From the NCBI RefSeq assembly GCF_000317555.1, contig NC_019745.1, forward strand, positions 3,782,001 through 3,846,000: a stretch of 64,000 nt of DNA, in the 5' to 3' direction. How positions within the stretch are numbered: position 1 is the first letter of the stretch; each line of letters begins with the position of its first letter. This stretch comes from Gloeocapsa sp. PCC 7428. GTDB lineage: Bacteria; Cyanobacteriota; Cyanobacteriia; Cyanobacteriales; Chroococcidiopsidaceae. Shown here in pieces: positions 1,100-42,861 of the stretch. The position numbers and the translations under genes were made by a program. The notes beneath the pieces are model-generated. The model saw only the letters and a list, made by a program, of their open reading frames with translations. It searched no databases and had not been told where the DNA came from.

Positions 1100-1771
1100 A
1101 TGTCTTTTAAAAAAGCTTGTTTCTTCTTTTGTATTACTCTTGCAGGTCTTTTTTCTTTACTCTTAATTGTTTCATTAATTCCAAGAAGATGGAACATTTC
1201 TTCCCAAGAAAATGATGTAAATATCTGCGTTAATCAAGTTGGCATTCATACTAATATTATTGTACCTGTACGGAATAATGTATATAATTGGCAACAATTT
1301 TTAAATCTTAAAGAAATCGGTAAACAGCCTTCAGAAAATTATCAATACCTAGGTTTTGGTTGGGGCGATCGCGACTTTTATCCTACAAATCCTAATCAAA
1401 TTCAGGAAATCGTTCCCCTTGGGATACAAGCTCTATTCTTCTCTCGTGGGTCACTTATGCGAGTAGAAGGGTATCCAGAAATACCCCAAAGTCATGATAT
1501 TCACTGTGTAGGAGTCAATACCTCAAACTATCTAAACACTGTACACTTTATTCAAAATTCTTTTGAATTAACTCCTCAAGGACAAACAATATTATTCGTG
1601 CGTAGTGATGAATCAGACGCTAGCTATTATGAGGCAAAAGGTCATTATTCAATTTTAAGAAATAGCAATAATTGGACTGCCGAAGGATTAAGACAAGCAA
1701 ACATCAACACACCTCTATGGGCTGGAATTCCGCAAGCTGTTATGTTTCATGTAAGCAGAAATCCTAATTAA
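1100..1771 (+). CDS. DUF2459 family protein
   Basis: 223 residues. There is a hydrophobic N-terminal segment (about residues 9-27), then a soluble domain with the DUF2459 hallmarks: a GIHTNIIVP segment near residue 48 and GFGWGDRDFYPT near residue 86, followed by a serine- and glycine-rich stretch. The family is often annotated as a urease-region hypothetical, and its biochemical role is unknown. The protein is probably anchored in the membrane with its domain in the periplasm. An in-frame ATG follows an AT-rich leader without a strong ribosome binding site. It stands alone: the kinase gene lies 260 bases upstream and insertion-sequence debris starts 60 bases downstream. Confidence 0.75.
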   Translation: MSFKKACFFFCITLAGLFSLLLIVSLIPRRWNISSQENDVNICVNQVGIHTNIIVPVRNNVYNWQQFLNLKEIGKQPSENYQYLGFGWGDRDFYPTNPNQIQEIVPLGIQALFFSRGSLMRVEGYPEIPQSHDIHCVGVNTSNYLNTVHFIQNSFELTPQGQTILFVRSDESDASYYEAKGHYSILRNSNNWTAEGLRQANINTPLWAGIPQAVMFHVSRNPN

Positions 1772-1830
1772 TTACTATTTTTTATTTATAACAATTCTGA
1801 ATTGTTTAGGCACTCTCACTATTTCTTTCC

Positions 1831-2203
1831 TTAGTGGTGCAGAAAACGCTGTCGTCCATGGTCAATGGTCTGATCAGGAGAACGTCACCACTTGCGAGAA
1901 CTCAATGCGAGCGTCTTAGACTTGCTGGTAGTGCTTCAAGACATAGGCTTTCAGAGGGCTTCGCTGGGGCAGTGGGGTGAAAGTAGGCAAGCTCAGTCGC
2001 TGATAACACTGCCGAGCAATCGCTCAAAGCCCCAGTTGCAGAAAACGCAACCTCCGCTTACTGTGCGAGTCGCGTTGAGAACGGCATCCCGCCTGAACCA
2101 ACAGCATCTCCACGACGGCAATCAGGTGGGTTGTGTCGAGGAGCATGACCAGTGACGTCAGCCGTTGGGCGTCTCGTAGGCGAGATTGAGACAGGTCGAA
2201 GCC
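1831..2203. repeat. Direct repeat, copy 1 (IS right end)
   Basis: About 373 bases nearly identical to 6439-6812 in the same orientation. The differences are roughly ten substitutions and one indel, most of them around 2061-2079. Identity begins at the IS terminal repeat TTAGTGGTGCAG and ends just after ACAGGTCGAAGCC. The two copies bracket sbtA and sbtB. Confidence 0.9.
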
Positions 2204-2715
2204 CGCCGACTTGTAATCCTTGAAATGCGGTTCTATGGCGCAATAGCGTTGACTATACACTTCAAAGGTTTGGAGGGACGGGGGCAAGCTAGACAGTACC
2301 GCTCAGGGCTTTGCAACAGTTGACAGATGCGCAGTGGCGAGGTGTGCCTCAATCTCGTCATATTCAATTGTCGGTAGAGATAGGCTTCGTCTTGCGGCGA
2401 CCAGAGGTCATCCACTCGACAGAGCCGTCCAGAGGCTAAATGGACTGAGACACCACCTTTCAGTCGAATGGCTCACTCCCACTGATGAGCGTGTAGCCAT
2501 TGCAACAGGTGCTTATGGTCAAAGCCCCTGTCTGCCAGGAGTGTGACCAAACACCTGGGCGAAATCTGCTCATATGTCCTCTCCAACACGGCTTGATAGT
2601 CCTCGAAGGCGAAACTGGCAATCTTAGTGTTCCAGAACCGTTTGCGCCACCGTGTTTTACTTTCACTACAATGAATCAGCCCTACCAGGTCAGGGAAGTA
2701 CTGGCAGACCGTGAC
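1831..2715 (-). mobile_element. Decayed insertion sequence, right-end part (transposase pseudogene)
   Basis: On the minus strand, pieces of one DDE transposase can be read in changing frames. About 2690-2475 encodes a stretch with LADRGFDHKHLLQWLHAH (the second catalytic aspartate context) and then a TGA. About 2470-2330 gives IRLKGGVSVHLASGRL and DDLWSPQDEAYLY. About 2287-2100 gives IEPHFKDYKSAGFDL, the C-terminal glutamate region of this group. At least two frameshifts and one stop break the gene, and its N-terminal half is missing. The outer end at 1831 begins TTAGTGGTGCAGAAAAC, a terminal inverted repeat seen again at 6439 and, inverted, at 7817. The inner edge touches the sbtA stop codon. 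Confidence 0.75.
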
Positions 2716-2726
2716 GCGTCTGCGAT

Positions 2727-3992
2727 TCAGCTGCCCATCAGCGCCTGGGCAAGCCCAACAAAGAGTGGTATTCCTATGGCAATCGCAACCGGCGTACCGA
2801 TGGCTGTGGAAGCGCCTATGTAGGCGGAGGGATTGGCCGACGGGATACCGGCTCGTAAAGTGGGCGGTCCTGAGATGTCTGAACTGGAGCAGGCAATGAT
2901 GGCCAGTAGCGCGATGCCGCCAGGGCTGAACCCCGTGGCGTAGTGGGCAATCATGCCGAGACCGAAGGCGATAAACCCATGCAGCAGCGGCGCCACCAAG
3001 GCGTATAGGGCGTACCACTGGGCCACCTTGCGCAGCTCGCCAAGCCTTGACCAGGCCTCCATACCCATTACCAGCATCAGTATCGAAAGCAGACCGCGGA
3101 AGAGTGGCTCGTAGAAGCTTTCAAAGACACTTTCTGGCCGAGTTAGCAGACCTAGAGCGAGACCGAGTAGCAGTGCCGATAGGGCAGAACCCTCGAGGCT
3201 TTCCTTCACAATGGGCCATATTTTGACCCGCTCACGCTGCTTGCTGGGATACCCGCTTGCGGTAATGCGCTGCTGGCTGCGATACTCCTGCCTGCTGGTG
3301 GGATACTCCGGCTTGCTGGGATACTCGCCTGCGGTACTGAAAGACTCGCCTGCGGTACTGAAAGACTCGCCTGCGGTACTGAAAGATGCGCCTGCGGTAC
3401 TGAAAGATGCGCCTGCGGTACTGAAAGACTCGCTTGCGGTACTGAAAGACTCGCCTGCGGTACTGAAAGACGCGCCTGCGGTACGGTGCTGCTCGCGGAG
3501 AGACTTTTTCTTGCTAGTATAAATGCTAGCCACGACGATCGCAGTCACGAGCGCTGGGATGTCCATGAAGGGATAGAGTGCGCCGGCCCAGGCCTCATAT
3601 TCGATGCCTTGCGCTTCCAGTACTGTTATGCCGGCAGCGAGGGTAGAGCCACTCACAGCACCGAACAAGCCTGCGGTCGCAACGGCATCCACGGTTCTAA
3701 TGCCTGGCAGCTTGGCCAACGTGTAGCGCCCGATGAACACAATAAGCATCCCCGTTACCACGGCGAACAGCGCGGGCAACAGCATCTCCGTCAGATTGGA
3801 ATTGCGGATCGCAATGCCGCCGCTCAGACCGATTTTGATGAGCAGCATGAAGACGATGAACTTATAGATCGCATCTGGAATTTCCAGTTTGCTACCGAGG
3901 GCAGCAATGACTATACCACCAATCAGAAAGGCGAGCGTCGGTGACTGCAACTGCGCCCCGAATTTCGTCAAGAAATCGGACAAGAAATCCAC
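2727..3992 (-). CDS. sbtA: Sodium-dependent bicarbonate transporter SbtA with a heptapeptide-repeat loop
   Basis: 421 residues, against about 370 in the family. The protein takes up HCO3- with Na+ across the plasma membrane and is part of the carbon-concentrating mechanism. Family signatures are PALVTAIVVASIY before the central loop, RVKIWPIVKESLEGSA after it, and CSSSDISGPPTLRAGIPSANPSAYIGAS near the end; the latter two are nearly unchanged. The extra length sits in the cytoplasmic loop (residues 171-226), as eight tandem heptapeptides of type TAG[A/E]SFS. The start is GTG at 3992, supported by AAGGAGG seven bases upstream; no ATG fits. The gene is GC-rich (40 of 60 bases G or C at 2881-2940, against 29 of 60 at 13201-13260 in nrtA) and contains no HIP1 octamer. 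Insertion-sequence debris abuts its 3' end. I infer horizontal acquisition and probably retained function. Confidence 0.93.
   Translation of the reverse strand: MDFLSDFLTKFGAQLQSPTLAFLIGGIVIAALGSKLEIPDAIYKFIVFMLLIKIGLSGGIAIRNSNLTEMLLPALFAVVTGMLIVFIGRYTLAKLPGIRTVDAVATAGLFGAVSGSTLAAGITVLEAQGIEYEAWAGALYPFMDIPALVTAIVVASIYTSKKKSLREQHRTAGASFSTAGESFSTASESFSTAGASFSTAGASFSTAGESFSTAGESFSTAGEYPSKPEYPTSRQEYRSQQRITASGYPSKQRERVKIWPIVKESLEGSALSALLLGLALGLLTRPESVFESFYEPLFRGLLSILMLVMGMEAWSRLGELRKVAQWYALYALVAPLLHGFIAFGLGMIAHYATGFSPGGIALLAIIACSSSDISGPPTLRAGIPSANPSAYIGASTAIGTPVAIAIGIPLFVGLAQALMGS
3315..3482. repeat. 21-bp tandem repeat inside sbtA (eight units)
   Basis: Eight contiguous 21-base units, consensus CCTGCGGTACTGAAAGAyTC plus one variable base on the plus strand, exactly in phase with sbtA. 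They encode the heptapeptides TAGASFS, TAGESFS, TASESFS, TAGASFS, TAGASFS, TAGESFS, TAGESFS and TAGEYPS (residues 171-226). Related shorter motifs (GGGATACyCGCyTGCGG) continue to about 3240. The unit length keeps the frame open, so copy number can vary without breaking the gene. Confidence 0.95.
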
Positions 3993-4376
3993 TAAAACCT
4001 CCTTCCGCCTCCTCTCAAGAGGAGCGATTACTGTGATAAGTGAGCTTTAAAAAGTAAAGGTGAAGCGCTTCACTTCTATAGCACAGGCGTTACGCGAGAA
4101 CCTGTCGACAGGGTGTTCAGAGATGGCCGCTCTCCTAACGGGACTAGAAGGTGATAGCTATCTTGCACCATCCTTCATAGAACCTGATCTATCAAGACAT
4201 GAATCTCTATGTGTTTAAGCCTATCCTGAAATGCACAGATTTTTGCGCTCTGTTACATGGAAATGTCAAATTGAAATCATAAATTTTTCTTTGGTTTGGC
4301 GATTCCTGCCTCTGGTTAATGTGAATTGCGATCGCAGAGTTTTCTCAATGCGACATGCCCTTTACCAAAGAGCCAA
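3993..4376. other. Upstream region of sbtA, no gene
   Basis: 384 bases between the sbtA start (read leftward) and the decayed leucine-rich-repeat gene (read rightward). It holds the sbtA ribosome binding site (AAGGAGG on the minus strand just beyond 3999) and a 14-bp palindrome at 4060-4073. No open reading frame with family features was seen. A regulator-binding region is expected because sbtA is normally induced by low CO2, but I could not assign a specific site. Confidence 0.6.
4060..4073. promoter_or_regulatory. 14-bp palindrome upstream of sbtA
   Basis: GTGAAGCGCTTCAC is a perfect palindrome 68-81 bases upstream of the sbtA GTG. No run of T follows it on the minus strand, so it does not look like a terminator. 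Its position and symmetry suit an operator, but it is unlike the AT-rich LysR-type sites usual for low-CO2 genes. Confidence 0.4.
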
Positions 4377-4850
4377 ATGACTGTCATTCTCCCTTTTCGC
4401 TGGTTTGCGCCGTCCTTTGTCGTGATTGGACTAGGAGTATGGAGCCTATCCGCCCAGCAAACATCCGTATTTCTGATATCTCACCTTTATCTGGGCTAGA
4501 CCAAATCGAATATTTGGCGATCGGCAACAACCGCATTCGCGACCTAAATCTGTTGACCCCGTTGAGCCAGCTACACAGCTTATTTATCTTTAGTAATGAA
4601 ATTAGCGATCTCACCCCCTTACAAGACCTGACAGAATTGCGATCGCTCTCCCCCTAGCTCACTTGCATGAACTCGAAGAACTTTTACTGTTCAACACCTC
4701 AGTAGCTAATATTGCGCCGCTCAAAAATCTCGCACAACTTACCTGGCTATACCTTTCAACACCTCGGTCGCAGAAACGACCGCCTTGACTAGATTGGCTC
4801 GGCTGACCTGGTTGGCTCTGCGGGGCACTGAGAGCCGCGATCGCACCTGA
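4377..4850 (+). pseudogene. Leucine-rich-repeat (internalin-like) protein, frameshifted
   Basis: Three frames have to be joined to read one protein. The ATG at 4377 opens a secretion signal (MTVILPFRWFAPSFVVIG, then a LSAQQ cleavage-like site). The frame then shifts at about 4465 into repeats such as ISDISPLSGLDQIEYLAIGN and ISDLTPLQDLTELRSL. A second shift near 4650 continues with LAHLHELEELLLFNTSVANI and APLKNLAQLTWLYL. A third near 4765 gives TALTRLARLTWLALRG and ends at about 4850. The spacing of Leu, Asn and Ile fits the 22-residue LRR of secreted internalin-like proteins. Unlike sbtA and sbtB it contains HIP1 octamers (about 4328, 4639 and 4837). It is clearly inactive. Confidence 0.75.
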
Positions 4851-5026
4851 GAAAGTGACAAACAGAGATCGTCTGTCTCTGCTCGCCGACCGATTCCATC
4901 AACCTATCCAAAACCCATGCAGATGTCGCCTTAGCCACCCGTCTCTGTGATGGGTCGCACTATGGTCGCCTTGAGGTCCAATTACGATGTCTCAAGGAGA
5001 GTACCTCGCCCCTACAATGGGTCGTA

Positions 5027-5269
5027 TCAATCCACGTGCAATGCGGGTGACTCTGTTGGTGGGGTCGGCTCTAAGGGGGGACTGTAGCGAGCGGCGTTAA
5101 TCCAAATTACTGAAAGCAGTAAACCAACACCGCAACCGATCAAGAAGATCCAACCATGGGAGGGTTCTAAAACACAGAGCAAGCGGCGATTACTGCCATA
5201 CACCTGCACGACCCACCCCTCATCCGTATCCAACTTTAGCTGTGACTGCCTCGATTCAAACTTATTCAT
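5027..5269 (-). CDS. Small single-pass membrane protein of unknown function
   Basis: 80 residues: a polar N-terminus (about 40 residues, containing WVVQVYGSNRRLLCVLEP), one transmembrane helix (about residues 41-58, WIFLIGCGVGLLLSVIWI) and a short Pro-rich tail. A GGAG-like sequence lies about nine bases before the ATG. I do not recognise a family. The clean hydrophobic segment and orderly composition make it more credible than a chance frame, but it sits among decayed genes and may be a remnant. Confidence 0.5.
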   Translation of the reverse strand: MNKFESRQSQLKLDTDEGWVVQVYGSNRRLLCVLEPSHGWIFLIGCGVGLLLSVIWINAARYSPPLEPTPPTESPALHVD

Positions 5270-5705
5270 GGTTTTCGCTCCATACTGCTTGTGTGTATCG
5301 CTTACAGGTCGCTTGCCTGTATCGCACGGAACACCTGCCGAAAATCCACCTGTGTGATGTGTGTAGCGGCTTCAGAACAGTGGTTATGTCTTTGAGATGC
5401 TTTCGCTGAATTTATAGATATAAGCCTATACTTTAATCAAACACTATATCTTTAAGTTTATGCAATGCCTGGCTAACAAGCAGCATTTTTTACAAAACAT
5501 TGCTTCAATCTTGCCGAATCTTTTGATAAGCGAAACTTATAAGTTGAACCTGCTCGGCTATACCGCACTTGATTCCTATAAGCCCTCATTGATTCAGGCG
5601 GTTGCGGAGGAATCAGCCACCGGCTGATGCTACTCCAGCTGATCTTCGTTTTTTCGATTCATTTTTGCGTGAATTCTGCATGACCAGTCTGTCGATTGCC
5701 ACACA
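5270..5705. other. Stretch without a recognisable gene
   Basis: About 435 bases. The middle part (about 5400-5570) is AT-rich and contains the 12-bp palindrome AACTTATAAGTT at 5534-5545. Short imperfect repeats of a CGCTTGCCTGTATCGC type occur near 5295-5320. No coding frame with family features was seen. It is probably decayed DNA. Confidence 0.5.
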
Positions 5706-5819
5706 TTAGTTCGCATAGGGGAGGAATCGCCCTACGTCGAGGGCTTGAATCACTGCGGCGGTGCCCCCGTGCCGCCGCCGACTACTAAAACATCTGCGGT
5801 GAGAGTGATGATATTCAAG
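5706..5819 (-). pseudogene. Remnant of an FAD-dependent oxidoreductase N-terminus
   Basis: On the minus strand about 5819-5755 reads TLTADVLVVGGGTG, the dinucleotide-binding start of flavin oxidoreductases (V-V-G-G-G-x-G). A one-base shift then gives GTAAVIQALDVGRF before a stop at 5706. Joined, this is the canonical beta-alpha-beta start of an FAD-dependent dehydrogenase. Nothing after it matches, so only about 35 codons survive. The frameshift lies in a GC-rich run at about 5765-5778. Confidence 0.55.
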
Positions 5820-6427
<608 letters not shown>

Positions 6428-6438
6428 CTCAAAACCCC

Positions 6439-6812
6439 TTAGTGGTGCAGAAAACTCTGTCGTCCATGGTCAATGGTCTGATCAGGAGAACGTCACCACT
6501 TGCGAGAACTCAATGCGAGCGTCTTAGACTTGCTGGTAGTGCTTCAAGACATAGGCTTTCGGAGGGCTTCGCTGGGGCAGTGGGGTGAAAGTAGGCAAGC
6601 TCAGTCGCTGATAACACTGCCGAGCAATCGCTCAAAGCCCCAGTTGCAGAAAACGCAACCTCCGCTCAACCGTGCTAGTCGAGTTGAGAACGGCATCCCG
6701 CCTGAACCAACAGCATCTCCACGACGGCAATCAGGTGGGTTGTGTCGAGGAGCATGACCAGTGACGTCAGCCGTTAGGCGTCTCGTAGGCGAGATTGAGA
6801 CAGGTCAAAGCC
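6439..6812. repeat. Direct repeat, copy 2 (IS right end)
   Basis: Near-identical to 1831-2203 in the same orientation. It starts at the terminal repeat TTAGTGGTGCAGAAAACTC, 11 bases after the sbtB stop codon. Identity stops abruptly at 6812, where an unrelated element begins. Confidence 0.9.
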
Positions 6813-6905
6813 ATTAGCCACAAGCTAAGGTTGCCAAACAATTGTCAAGGGTCAGGCTTGGTTAGTGTAAAACTCATAGCAGATAAGCTATAGAGGGATG
6901 AAGCC

Positions 6906-7597
6906 GTGAGCCGGCGCAACCGTGACCATGCCAAAAAGAAGCATCGCCCAATGGTAGAAGATGAAGCCATTGCCTCGCAACTGGAAGCTATATTGACACC
7001 AGCGCTCACAAGACAAGAAAAATACTATCGGCAACTGGGGTGAAGAGACAGAATTCTCAACCTACCGTTGATGGTAGCTGCGGTGCTACCTTGCTGTGGC
7101 AAGAGTGACGGAATGAACAAGGATGTTAGCCAGGGAGGGTTTTTTGCGGTGTAGTCCGTTGAGTGTTAGTCAACAAGCAATGTCTCAACGGTTGTTAATA
7201 TTTTCTGCCGAATTATTTGAGAAAGTATTTAAGAATTTGGCACTACATTTAAAAGCAGCTTGGTATTACAGAAATAGTCGAACTATACCTGAAAGTGTTC
7301 AATTTGGTAGGTCAAAGTTTGAGAAGATTTGGATAGTAGAGTGTTCGGTTTTAGAAGCGGTGTTTTGCAAGCTTGATAGCTTGGAAGAGGTTGCTCAAGG
7401 ACAATTAGCAGGAAAGATGGGAACTGTCATAGATTTAGTTACCCGATTACCTGTAGAGATTTGGTGGCATGAAAATTCTAAAGCTTGTGATATTAAAGTT
7501 GAGTTGGATGTCTTAAACTTGGTCACAGCCAAAACTTTACTTTTACTAGATAGAGGATCTTATCACTTTAGCTTTTGGCTGCAATTAATTGAACAAA
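6906..7597 (+). pseudogene. IS4-family transposase remnant, nested in another IS
   Basis: The GTG at 6906 starts SRRNRDHAKKKHRPMVEDE, a typical opening of cyanobacterial IS4-type transposases. An in-frame TGA at 7041 follows RQLG, and a frameshift near 7085-7120 leads into MLAREGFLRCSPLSVSQQAM. The rest runs through WIVECSVLEAVF, GQLAGKMGTVIDLVTRLPVE and TLLLLDRGSYHFSFW. The expected first catalytic Asp in WIVDCS is Glu here. The sequence stops matching after QLIEQ at about 7597, so the C-terminal third is missing. It is inactive. Confidence 0.75.
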
Positions 7598-7711
7598 CGG
7601 CAATATCGCCCCAACAGCTTCGGAGACTCCTTGCAGATGGCGCACGTCTTTAGTGTTTACCCATTGACTCAGTTGGTCTATCAGTTGACCATACAACAGG
7701 GGAGTGTCCAT
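7598..7711 (-). pseudogene. Transposase N-terminal fragment (left end of the split IS)
   Basis: The ATG at 7711 (minus) begins a 38-codon open stretch resembling the N-termini of cyanobacterial DDE transposases (LIDQLSQWV, then DVRHLQG). It ends abruptly at the junction with the IS4-like remnant. The terminal inverted repeat lies about 90 bases upstream, ending at 7817. It complements the C-terminal fragments at 1831-2715 and 6439-6812. Confidence 0.65.
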
Positions 7712-9373: not shown

Positions 9374-11380
9374 TTAAGCAGCGACAAGCGGACGTCGCGC
9401 ATCAAGCACAACTTCGGCGATCGAGAAATCGCGTTTGATTGCTAAATCGTTGAGATAACCAATCGGATCGTCAGCATTGAACACGCTACCATCAAATAAC
9501 TTAATTGGCTGACGAGTGTAACTAATATCTAATCCCAGTTCCCTGGCAGCGGTACTAAAGACACCAACTTTGCAGATGCGTTCGACGATTTCTACCCAGT
9601 TTCTCGGAAACGGAGTATCACCCCAACGCGCCAGTTGCGTCATAATCCAAAGTTGTTCGGTACGACTCGGACGATTGATTGCTGAATCTGCGTAAAACTG
9701 GTGATGTGCATACTCCCGCATCGGACGATCCAAACTACACGTCGAGGTATTCGGATCTTCAATTTGGATATAAGTAAGATCTGTGCTAACGTACTCGCGT
9801 CGGGCGACAATTTCGCGAACTTCTTCAGAATTTGCCGGATCTGCGCAGTAACGGCAAGCTTCTAGCAGGGCTTTGACTAACGCAATGTGCGTGTTAGGAT
9901 ACGCTGCTGCCCAATCTTCGCGCACACCAAGAACTTTTCCTGGATGTCCTAACCAAATTTCTAAGTCAGTCGCGATCGTAAAACCAACACCTTCTTCCGC
10001 AGCGCGAATATTCCAAGGTTCTCCGACGCAGTAACCGTCAATTGTTCCGGCTTGTAAATCTACAACCATTTGCGCCGGAGGAATTGTTTTCAGTGAAACA
10101 TCGCGGTCTGGATCAATACCACCTGCGGCTAGCCAATAACGTAGTAAAAGATTGTGCATCGAACTCGGATGTACCATCCCCATGCGATGCTGTTTATTGG
10201 CGGTCGAATGCAGATACGCTTTGAAGTCAGATAAGGTGTAAATGCCTTGCTCGTAAAAACGTTTATCGAGTGTGATCGCGTTACCGTTACGAGTCATTGT
10301 TAGCGATGTTGCAACAGGTAACGGACGGTTTTCGTGTCCTCCTAAAGTTAACCACATTGGCATCCCTGAAGGCATTTGCGCAGCGTCTAAATAGCCGCCA
10401 CTGATACCATCGACAATTCCCCGCCAGCTGGTTTCGCGGACTAGGGTCACTTCGTCTAAACCATGCTTTGTAAAAAAGCCTTTTTCCTTGGCTACTGCAA
10501 CAGGGGCGCAAGCTGTGAGTGGAACAAAGCCGATTTCGAGGTTGACTTTTTCTAAGCCATGACGGGAAATCGCCGCCGTTTTCCGCGCCCGAATTTTCTT
10601 AATACGTTTTTGCTGGTTGAGGAAGTAAATCATCTCACTGCGCAAGCTGTAGTAGCTGGGGTGTTCGACAACTTCCATGCGCTTGCGGGGACGCGGGATA
10701 TCAACTTCGAGAATTTGACCGATTTTTGATTCGGGTCCATTAGTTAACATGACAATGCGATCGGATAGCAATACAGCTTCATCGACATCGTGTGTCACCA
10801 TGATCGCGGTAACGTGGTTTTCCTCACAAATCCGCATCAGTTGTTCTTGCAAGTTACCACGTGTTAAAGCGTCTAGCGCCCCGAAAGGTTCGTCGAGTAA
10901 GAGTAATTTAGGACGGATTGCTAAAGCACGGGCGATCGCAACGCGTTGTTTTTGTCCGCCGGATAGCATCTCTGGAGGTTTATCGGCGTGAGGACGCAAC
11001 CCAACCATATCGATGTGTTGTTCGACGATCGCGCGGCGTTCGCCTGCGGGTAAATCTTTCATCGTTGCATTTACCGCGAGGGCAATATTTTCACGTACTG
11101 TACGCCAGGGTAGCAGCGAATAATTTTGAAAGACAACCATGCGATCGGGTCCTGGTTTGGTGATGCGTTGTCCTTCTAATGTGACAACACCATCGGAGGG
11201 TAAATCTAAACCGGCGACCATATTTAATAGTGTTGATTTACCGCAGCCAGAGTGACCGATTAAGGAAACAAATTCGCCTTTTTTGATTTGGAGATCGATG
11301 CCTTTGAGGGCTACGTATTGCCCACCACCGGCTAAATCAAAGACTTTATCAATGTTATCGACAGCAACGAATACAGACAT
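9374..11380 (-). CDS. nrtC: Nitrate ABC transporter ATPase fused to a substrate-binding domain, NrtC
   Basis: 668 residues. Residues 1 to about 255 are an ABC ATPase (Walker A GHSGCGKST, signature LSGGQKQRVAIARAL, Walker B LLLLDEPFGALD). From about residue 280 a cytoplasmic domain resembles NrtA (LEIGFVPLTACAPVAVAKEK, then GYLDAAQMPSGMPMW). In cyanobacteria this C-terminal domain mediates ammonium-dependent inhibition of nitrate uptake. It lies between nrtB (40 bases) and nrtD (47 bases) in one operon. Both domains are complete and of normal length. Confidence 0.97.
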   Translation of the reverse strand: MSVFVAVDNIDKVFDLAGGGQYVALKGIDLQIKKGEFVSLIGHSGCGKSTLLNMVAGLDLPSDGVVTLEGQRITKPGPDRMVVFQNYSLLPWRTVRENIALAVNATMKDLPAGERRAIVEQHIDMVGLRPHADKPPEMLSGGQKQRVAIARALAIRPKLLLLDEPFGALDALTRGNLQEQLMRICEENHVTAIMVTHDVDEAVLLSDRIVMLTNGPESKIGQILEVDIPRPRKRMEVVEHPSYYSLRSEMIYFLNQQKRIKKIRARKTAAISRHGLEKVNLEIGFVPLTACAPVAVAKEKGFFTKHGLDEVTLVRETSWRGIVDGISGGYLDAAQMPSGMPMWLTLGGHENRPLPVATSLTMTRNGNAITLDKRFYEQGIYTLSDFKAYLHSTANKQHRMGMVHPSSMHNLLLRYWLAAGGIDPDRDVSLKTIPPAQMVVDLQAGTIDGYCVGEPWNIRAAEEGVGFTIATDLEIWLGHPGKVLGVREDWAAAYPNTHIALVKALLEACRYCADPANSEEVREIVARREYVSTDLTYIQIEDPNTSTCSLDRPMREYAHHQFYADSAINRPSRTEQLWIMTQLARWGDTPFPRNWVEIVERICKVGVFSTAARELGLDISYTRQPIKLFDGSVFNADDPIGYLNDLAIKRDFSIAEVVLDARRPLVAA

Positions 11381-42135: not shown

Positions 42136-42861
42136 ATGCTCAAGCAACTTTTGACAGGTAGTTCTGCTCTTGCTTTTTTGATAGCAAGCAGTGTCGCGGT
42201 AGAAGCAAGACCAAAAGAACTGATGTTGCAGGCTCAGTTGGAAGAAACACCGACCACAATTCCTGCACCGGATGCCTCCACAACTCCTCCTGGCACTGGT
42301 ACAAGCCCTAACCCTGGCAGCACGACTCCCAGTCCTGATGGTTCTATAACCCCTCCTGTACCAGGCACCCCAACAACTCCCGATACTGGTACGACTCCTG
42401 AGTCTGATGGTTCGACAATTCCCGCCCCCGATGGCACAACAACGCCGGATGCTGGTACAACGCCTGAATCGGAAGATTCGATAACAACTCCTGATGGCAC
42501 AACAGCGCCGGATGCTGGTACAACGCCTGAATCGGAAGATTCGATAACAACTCCTGATGGCACAACAACGCCGGATGCTGGTACGACGCCTGAATCGGAA
42601 GATTCGATAACATCTCCTGAGGGTTCGGTCACGCCTCCTGCACCCGATGGCACAACAGCGCCGGATACTGGTACGACGCCTGAATCGGAAGATTCGACAA
42701 CAACCCCCGATAGTTCTACGAACCCAACTCCAGACGCAGCGACTACTAACCCAAGTAGTTCTGGGACTGTAGCTTGTGAACCTATTCCTATGGCAAGCCC
42801 CAGTGGAGGAGCGACTAGAGAAAGAATTCAAGCCCAGCAAGCTTGCGGTCAGCCGCTGTAA
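42136..42861 (+). CDS. Secreted Thr/Pro-rich tandem-repeat protein
   Basis: 241 residues. A signal peptide (about residues 1-25, SALAFLIASSVAVEA) is followed by low-complexity sequence of Thr, Pro, Asp, Gly, Ser and Glu. Residues about 98-195 hold four copies of a 21-residue unit (DGTTTPDAGTTPESEDSI and variants), encoded by near-identical 63-base repeats. A short non-repetitive end with two Cys (VACEPIPMAS and QQACGQPL) could form a disulfide. Strongly acidic, extended and without known domain; a wall-spanning or exopolymer-associated role is a guess. A terminator follows at 42924. Confidence 0.8.
   Translation: MLKQLLTGSSALAFLIASSVAVEARPKELMLQAQLEETPTTIPAPDASTTPPGTGTSPNPGSTTPSPDGSITPPVPGTPTTPDTGTTPESDGSTIPAPDGTTTPDAGTTPESEDSITTPDGTTAPDAGTTPESEDSITTPDGTTTPDAGTTPESEDSITSPEGSVTPPAPDGTTAPDTGTTPESEDSTTTPDSSTNPTPDAATTNPSSSGTVACEPIPMASPSGGATRERIQAQQACGQPL
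42429..42720. repeat. 63-bp tandem repeats in the Thr/Pro-rich gene
   Basis: Four copies of a 63-base unit containing GCTGGTACAACGCCTGAATC and GGAAGATTCGATAAC; copies two and three are almost identical. They encode the 21-residue protein repeats. The third copy is followed by a short insertion. Confidence 0.9.

Follow-up and report, generated by a model that had tools for sequence, protein, structure and literature searches.

SbtA is a cyanobacterial bicarbonate pump of high affinity and one of the candidates that could be installed in the chloroplasts of crops. The loop between its helices 5 and 6 is variable, and Price 2011 is reportedly a further study of this loop, cited in Du 2014. In the available part of the latter paper, the helix 5/6 loop is described as variable in size and perhaps regulatory, as 35-40 residues shorter in transitional strains, and as unrelated in size to kinetics across six SbtA homologues; the functional importance of the size variation was, in 2014, still to be determined (PMC4275256). 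The same loop has little presence in structures. In the cryo-EM map of Synechocystis SbtA, the stretch between Ser166 and Trp212 is absent (PMC8352866), and five deposited SbtA chains have 326-335 residues modelled of a 374-residue sequence, so that each chain is short of about as many residues as the absent linker stretch contains.

The locus studied here lies in a 64,000-nucleotide stretch of the Gloeocapsa sp. PCC 7428 genome (referred to below as the window). Its relevant features are as follows.

2727-3992, minus strand: sbtA, sodium-dependent bicarbonate transporter, 421 aa, GTG start with GGAGG upstream
3483-3527, minus strand: end of TM5 and start of the linker, preceding the array, SIYTSKKKSLREQHR
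3315-3482, minus strand: eight 21-bp units, seven TA[GS][AE]SFS and a last TAGEYPS, residues 171-226
3231-3314, minus strand: non-array remainder of the TM5-TM6 linker, KPEYPTSRQEYRSQQRITASGYPSKQRE, including the piece ITASGYPSKQ, which resembles the 11-residue module described below
6074-6427, plus strand: sbtB, PII-like partner, divergent from sbtA, Pfam P-II E = 7.8e-14

The non-array part of the transporter retains the signatures of its family, as the first-pass annotation of this DNA had claimed: the window protein matches the full Pfam Sbt_1 profile (1-308 of 308) with E = 4.2e-94. In a phmmer search (E up to 0.001) it matched one distinct PDB sequence, that of Synechocystis SbtA (E = 1.4e-164), and the top of a fold search was occupied by five SbtA entries (7cye, 7cyf, 7egk, 7egl and 8zor). 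The sbtA reading frame is unbroken across 421 codons. Judged by these profile and fold matches, the window protein is an intact SbtA bicarbonate transporter (Pfam Sbt_1, TC 2.A.83).

Several features of the surroundings can be recorded. The sbtA and sbtB genes are divergent in the window and in several relatives; in many others, sbtB follows sbtA on the same strand. The window SbtB does not carry the C-terminal CGPxGC redox loop reported for Synechocystis SbtB (motif from PMC8352866). Direct copies of a stretch of ~375 bp (98% identical), located at 1829-2203 and 6437-6812 and 4608 bases apart, flank the sbtA-sbtB region, and a search of the own genome retrieved only these two copies. An open reading frame at 7123-7653 has a weak match to IS4 transposase, far under the curated cut-off. 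A second tandem array, with a period of 63 (3 copies) running into a period of 45, is present at 42430-42711.

Pattern searches, translation and Tandem Repeats Finder agree that eight in-frame 21-bp units occupy exactly 3315-3482, as was first read from the sequence. The units tile without a gap (seven at 3336-3482 and the eighth at 3315-3335 in pattern searches), and Tandem Repeats Finder detected a period of 21 with 7.7 copies and 95% matches at 3323-3484. In its tandem units of 21 bp, a multiple of three, and in this level of matching, the array resembles a coding minisatellite. The order of units in the protein is TAGASFS, TAGESFS, TASESFS, TAGASFS, TAGASFS, TAGESFS, TAGESFS and TAGEYPS. 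The consensus TAG[A/E]SFS proposed earlier is therefore right in outline and slightly too narrow, since seven units follow TA[GS][AE]SFS (one of them being TASESFS) and the eighth is TAGEYPS. The repeats are indeed rich in Ser and Thr, which make up 24 of the 56 array residues; they contain neither Lys nor Arg and hence no site for trypsin. The word "inserted", also used for the array, is misleading, because native linker sequence flanks the array on both sides and the units are themselves variants of it. An equally good repeat was found in none of 1000 shuffles of the window linker, and the array is not due to chance.

A dispersed genomic repeat or mobile element was also considered as the source of the units and was rejected, as no copies beyond sbtA were found in the own genome at up to 3 mismatches: all seven matches to the 21-bp unit fell inside the array, and both matches to the TAGEYPS word fell in sbtA. 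The same was seen on a wider scale, since all 13 matches to a 20-base word, searched with up to 1 mismatch in 291 genomes of the order, were located in sbtA.

The TM5-TM6 linker was first read in 101 loci. Of 112 loci for the first linker set, 5 went unparsed. A wider set started from 196 parsed gene copies, of which 24 were removed because they nearly duplicated another copy and shared its linker, leaving 172 distinct SbtA genes (loci L113-L128, which are repeat views of the window gene or sbtB loci, were excluded). Linker length in these 172 genes ranged from 22 to 108 residues with a median of 63, and the window linker was joint longest. Comparison of the best repeat in each linker with shuffles revealed significant tandem repeats (p 0.002 or less) in 55 of the 172, while no repeat passed this threshold in 471 length-matched stretches taken from the membrane parts of these proteins. 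The periods in the 55 repeat-bearing linkers were 6 (24 linkers), 7/14 (15), 11 (14), 10 (1) and 13 (1). The unit types are alike: EYLSKQ for the period of 6, TAGEYPS or TAGASFS for 7, and TAGEYPSEQRI for 11. Three or more loose window-like heptads in a row were present in 13 of the 172 genes, in varying numbers; thus, the suspicion that the window array might be unique among SbtA homologues is not borne out, and neither is the array fixed. Among the other array types, 18-bp arrays of the ESLSKQ type (L006, L054) and 33-bp arrays (L022, L080) were seen, both unlike the window type.

At the other extreme, four of the 172 genes (L110, L198, L200 and L203) have linkers of 22 residues, which makes them natural material for the study of linker function. 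The linker codons of L110, TAT CTC AGC AAG CAG CGC GGT ACC GCA GAC AAG, correspond by eye to about one copy of an 11-residue module, and the L203 linker, also by eye, resembles it; those of L198 and L200 do so less.

The DNA consensus of this 11-residue module, drawn from 21 instances in 11 loci with a loose motif of our own setting, is TAT CCC AGC AAG CAG CGC ATT ACC GCA GGC GGG. Apart from single-base differences, the 7-residue unit equals the module minus the four codons AAG CAG CGC ATT, and the 6-residue unit equals the module minus CGC ATT ACC GCA GGC. The unit types thus look like trimmed forms of one module, as far as the sequences themselves can tell. Codon choice points the same way. 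Pairs of Tyr codons within one linker agree in 0.85 of cases vs 0.49 in the membrane part, and in the 88 linkers with at most a weak repeat, the agreement is 0.74 vs 0.50. That non-orthologous residues of one linker share their codons so often supports the descent of the units from one module, and all unit types probably derive from a single ancestral one.

We consider it probable that the window array is a tolerated, lineage-specific, in-frame minisatellite expansion produced by slippage or recombination in a permissive linker. Tolerated expansion was among the options named in the first-pass annotation, and it is now favoured by the hypervariability of the linker, by the repeated expansions in the family and by unit changes that are compatible with neutrality. 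SbtA consists of two halves of five helices each, and the array sits in the cytoplasmic linker between them. This linker would grow and shrink through tandem duplication of pieces of an 11-residue, 33-bp module, about Y-[LP]-S-K-Q-R-I-T-A-G-E, and the 21-bp unit of the window would be the ancestral module without K-Q-R-I. Replication slippage or unequal recombination, either of which is a plausible cause, would change the copy number; the reading frame would be kept because unit lengths are multiples of three; and the transporter probably tolerates the array because neither the membrane fold nor the known surface of SbtB contact includes the linker. An array of this origin would have no strong function. 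It is assumed here that proteins with 22-residue linkers do transport. On this account, tandem expansion in the SbtA linker is a process that recurs, and the window array is its local form.

Turnover of arrays is evident among close relatives. A strong SbtA match was found in 10 of the 19 genomes of the window's family, and five of these ten carry window-type arrays, with 8 (G000), 5 (G001), 7 (G004), 8 (G006) and 6 (G010) units, the comparison being one between species with one genome per species. The unit variants also differ among these five arrays. In the nearest relative, G010, SbtA is 97% identical at a tree distance of 0.033, and its array is two units shorter than that of the window; the acidic variant is encoded by GAC at the third codon in G010 vs GAG at the fourth in the window array. 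These counts bear on the suggestion that the array is an assembly artefact or that the gene is broken. Mis-assembly of short tandem repeats is possible, but other family genomes contain arrays built from this kind of unit in differing numbers and the frame is intact over the whole gene, which makes such an explanation scarcely credible.

The relatives differ in another respect. The gene at 9374-11380 of the window shares 98-99% identity with its counterparts in G001, G002, G004 and G010. Identities of SbtA to the window protein are 97% for G010, 92% for G004, 89% for G001 and, measured by halves, 74-81% for G002. Set against the 9374-11380 gene, these uneven values may mean that sbtA was replaced or transferred among members of the family.

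Array types were next to randomly distributed on the SbtA tree, which was built quickly by maximum likelihood from the membrane parts, under one simple model. Strong arrays were defined by a repeat score of at least 7, a cut of our own setting. Strong arrays with a period of 7 were found in 12 loci and required 8 changes (mean with shuffled labels 11.8), those with a period of 11 in 13 loci and 10 changes (12.8), and those with a period of 6 in 12 loci and 10 changes (11.7), where the counts of changes do not separate gain from loss. The closeness of these counts to the shuffled-label means indicates a scatter that is not far from random. Array type switches repeatedly across the SbtA tree.

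We also compared substitutions within and around the array. The 34 units of the five genomes comprise 14 distinct DNA units, which a minimum spanning tree connects by 16 nonsynonymous and 3 synonymous changes. This is not different from the neutral expectation (p 0.44), a result that rests on 19 changes and has little power. In five pairs, dN/dS of the membrane part was 0.06-0.27, and the 22 non-array linker codons showed 0-3 nonsynonymous and 0-2 synonymous differences in the same pairs, too few for a ratio. In this small test, the array looks relaxed while the adjoining linker varies little. Since the adjoining 22 codons change little at both kinds of site, the whole linker is not free of constraint. 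Two further observations concern composition: the terminal Ser is present in 33 of the 34 units, and the Ser+Thr fraction of the window linker, 0.33, ranks first among the 172 linkers (median 0.17). The length of the window linker together with its top Ser/Thr fraction could reflect selection for Ser/Thr residues.

The linker region is predicted to have no stable structure. An AlphaFold2 model of modest quality (monomer, 43 sequences, mean pLDDT 67) has pLDDT below 50 at residues 179-233 and 236-256, a range that includes 48 of the 56 array residues; the first unit is drawn as a continuation of the TM5 helix, which reaches residue 177, and the other units are modelled as coil. The loop faces the cytoplasm, the side on which SbtB was said to act, and this is in agreement with the docking of SbtB on that face (PMC8352866). 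One could then imagine that the array modulates the binding of SbtB at this face, either by touching it or by crowding the space around it, the more so as the sbtB gene sits only 2 kb from sbtA. However, the SbtB T-loop occupies the cleft formed by TM2/7/9/10 and the SbtB core makes no direct interaction with SbtA (PMC8352866), and the PCC 7942 SbtA with a c-Myc tag in the same loop still co-purified with SbtB, as stated in the available part of the source (PMC4275256). The proposed tuning of SbtB binding is thus unsupported, and we hold it to be very unlikely.

A different role for the array would be that of a multi-site phosphorylation platform, in which charge near the cytoplasmic face alters transport or SbtB access and the number of units sets the gain. 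The 24 Ser/Thr residues of the array are putative kinase acceptors, and, as noted above, no other linker of the 172 has a higher Ser+Thr fraction. Phosphorylation of this system has been described, as far as the accessible portions of the sources go: pThr189, in the Synechocystis SbtA linker, decreased under nitrogen starvation in one experiment, pThr53 of SbtB increased in another (PMC4379935), and, according to a 2026 review, phosphorylation is believed to reactivate SbtA in the light (PMC13249358). However, in the phmmer alignment the Synechocystis pThr189 pairs with a Pro of the window protein, so the known site is not conserved, and no phosphosite in such a heptad appears in the accessible text of the published phosphorylation work. 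The wide variation of linkers in length and Ser/Thr content, with four of the 172 having only 22 residues, and the array unit changes compatible with neutrality also speak against a platform of this kind. We regard it as rather unlikely and keep it as a candidate because, among the 172 linkers, that of the window has the highest Ser+Thr fraction and is joint longest.

A broader version of this idea would make the linker a contingency-like dial of length and phospho-acceptor number, with the repeat number tuning bicarbonate uptake to habitat. The expanded module, which bears Ser/Thr and aromatic residues, would then alter the strength of kinase action or of weak multivalent contacts on the trimer, and its tandem expansion would have been repeated in many lineages. 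Such a dial appears unlikely to us, and tolerated expansion remains the preferred reading.

Finally, the linker DNA might be under selection at the nucleotide level, as an RNA or DNA element or as an antisense gene. Simple word controls gave strong signals, some linker words being markedly uniform in DNA from genus to genus. EYLSKQ is written GAGTATCTCAGCAAGCAG in 0.83 of 35 loci with a codon identity of 0.92, and none of 28 membrane control words was as uniform; the 18-base word GAGTATCYCAGCAAGCAG had 12 exact matches in a phylum sample of 292 genomes, all 12 of them in sbtA, in 10 genomes. An initial measure on aligned pairs gave 0.66 vs 0.61 expected. With controls matched by amino acid, for which some residues had one or two control columns only and many words were tried, the values over all loci were 0.84 vs 0.70 for EYLSKQ (p 0.008) and 0.86 vs 0.73 for YLSKQ (p 0.004), and in loci with at most a weak repeat, LSKQ gave p 0.036 and 0.013 at two thinnings. 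However, EYLSKQ in the weak-repeat loci gave 0.79 vs 0.74 (p 0.26) and, when thinned less strictly, 0.84 vs 0.73 (p 0.085); for two words from the window itself, TAG and SFS, the matched control gave p 0.25 and 0.77. Nor does the window linker RNA (3230-3520) fold better than its shuffles (z 0.61), and no Rfam family reached its gathering score within 1500-7700, where the one sub-threshold match is in sbtB.

On the opposite strand, the median open length of the codon-aligned antisense frame over the linker is 101 codons vs 45 at control points, and this frame is stop-free over the linker in 128 of the 172 genes. Such openness is consistent with linker codon use, TTA, CTA and TCA being rare there. 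An antisense gene at 3211-3522 on the plus strand was rejected, since the frame of this window open reading frame is stop-free over the linker in only 1 of the 172 genes. Constraint at the nucleotide level was likewise set aside as a candidate: strong with simple word controls, it weakened with the amino-acid-matched ones and left a nominal excess for some words. Selection of this kind is, in our estimation, highly improbable, and we read the uniformity of linker words as shared ancestry of the copies plus the ordinary codon conservation of sbtA, with a small unexplained residue.

If tandem expansion accounts for the linker as proposed, the family-wide pattern is of more interest than the array itself, because it supplies a cause for the variation in loop size that, in the available part of the earlier work, is noted and left unexplained. 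The natural linker variants of 22-108 residues also make loop function directly testable. Should the loop prove inert, engineers may shorten it freely; should it not, carbon uptake is under natural control by the number of repeats.

By sequence and fold, the Synechocystis PCC 6803 SbtA (Slr1512) is the same transporter as the window protein. Its linker contains single ESFS-, AGDY- and RQEYLSQQ-like pieces and no array, and the window linker differs from it by eight additional heptads. No description of tandem repeats in the SbtA linker was found among the matches listed in a search of openly available literature, and the listed papers containing both SbtA and "tandem repeat" use the phrase, in their accessible parts, for other things. 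The variable loop of Du 2014 is the same loop as the one considered here; tandem repeats go unmentioned in the available part of that paper (PMC4275256), and a cause of the length variation is proposed here. The association of repeats with disordered protein regions is already known in general (PMC7230257). Compared with the repeats of disordered regions as presented in the available part of that work, those of SbtA are found in the linker of a transporter, recur throughout a family, and are built in few unit lengths from what look like pieces of one module.
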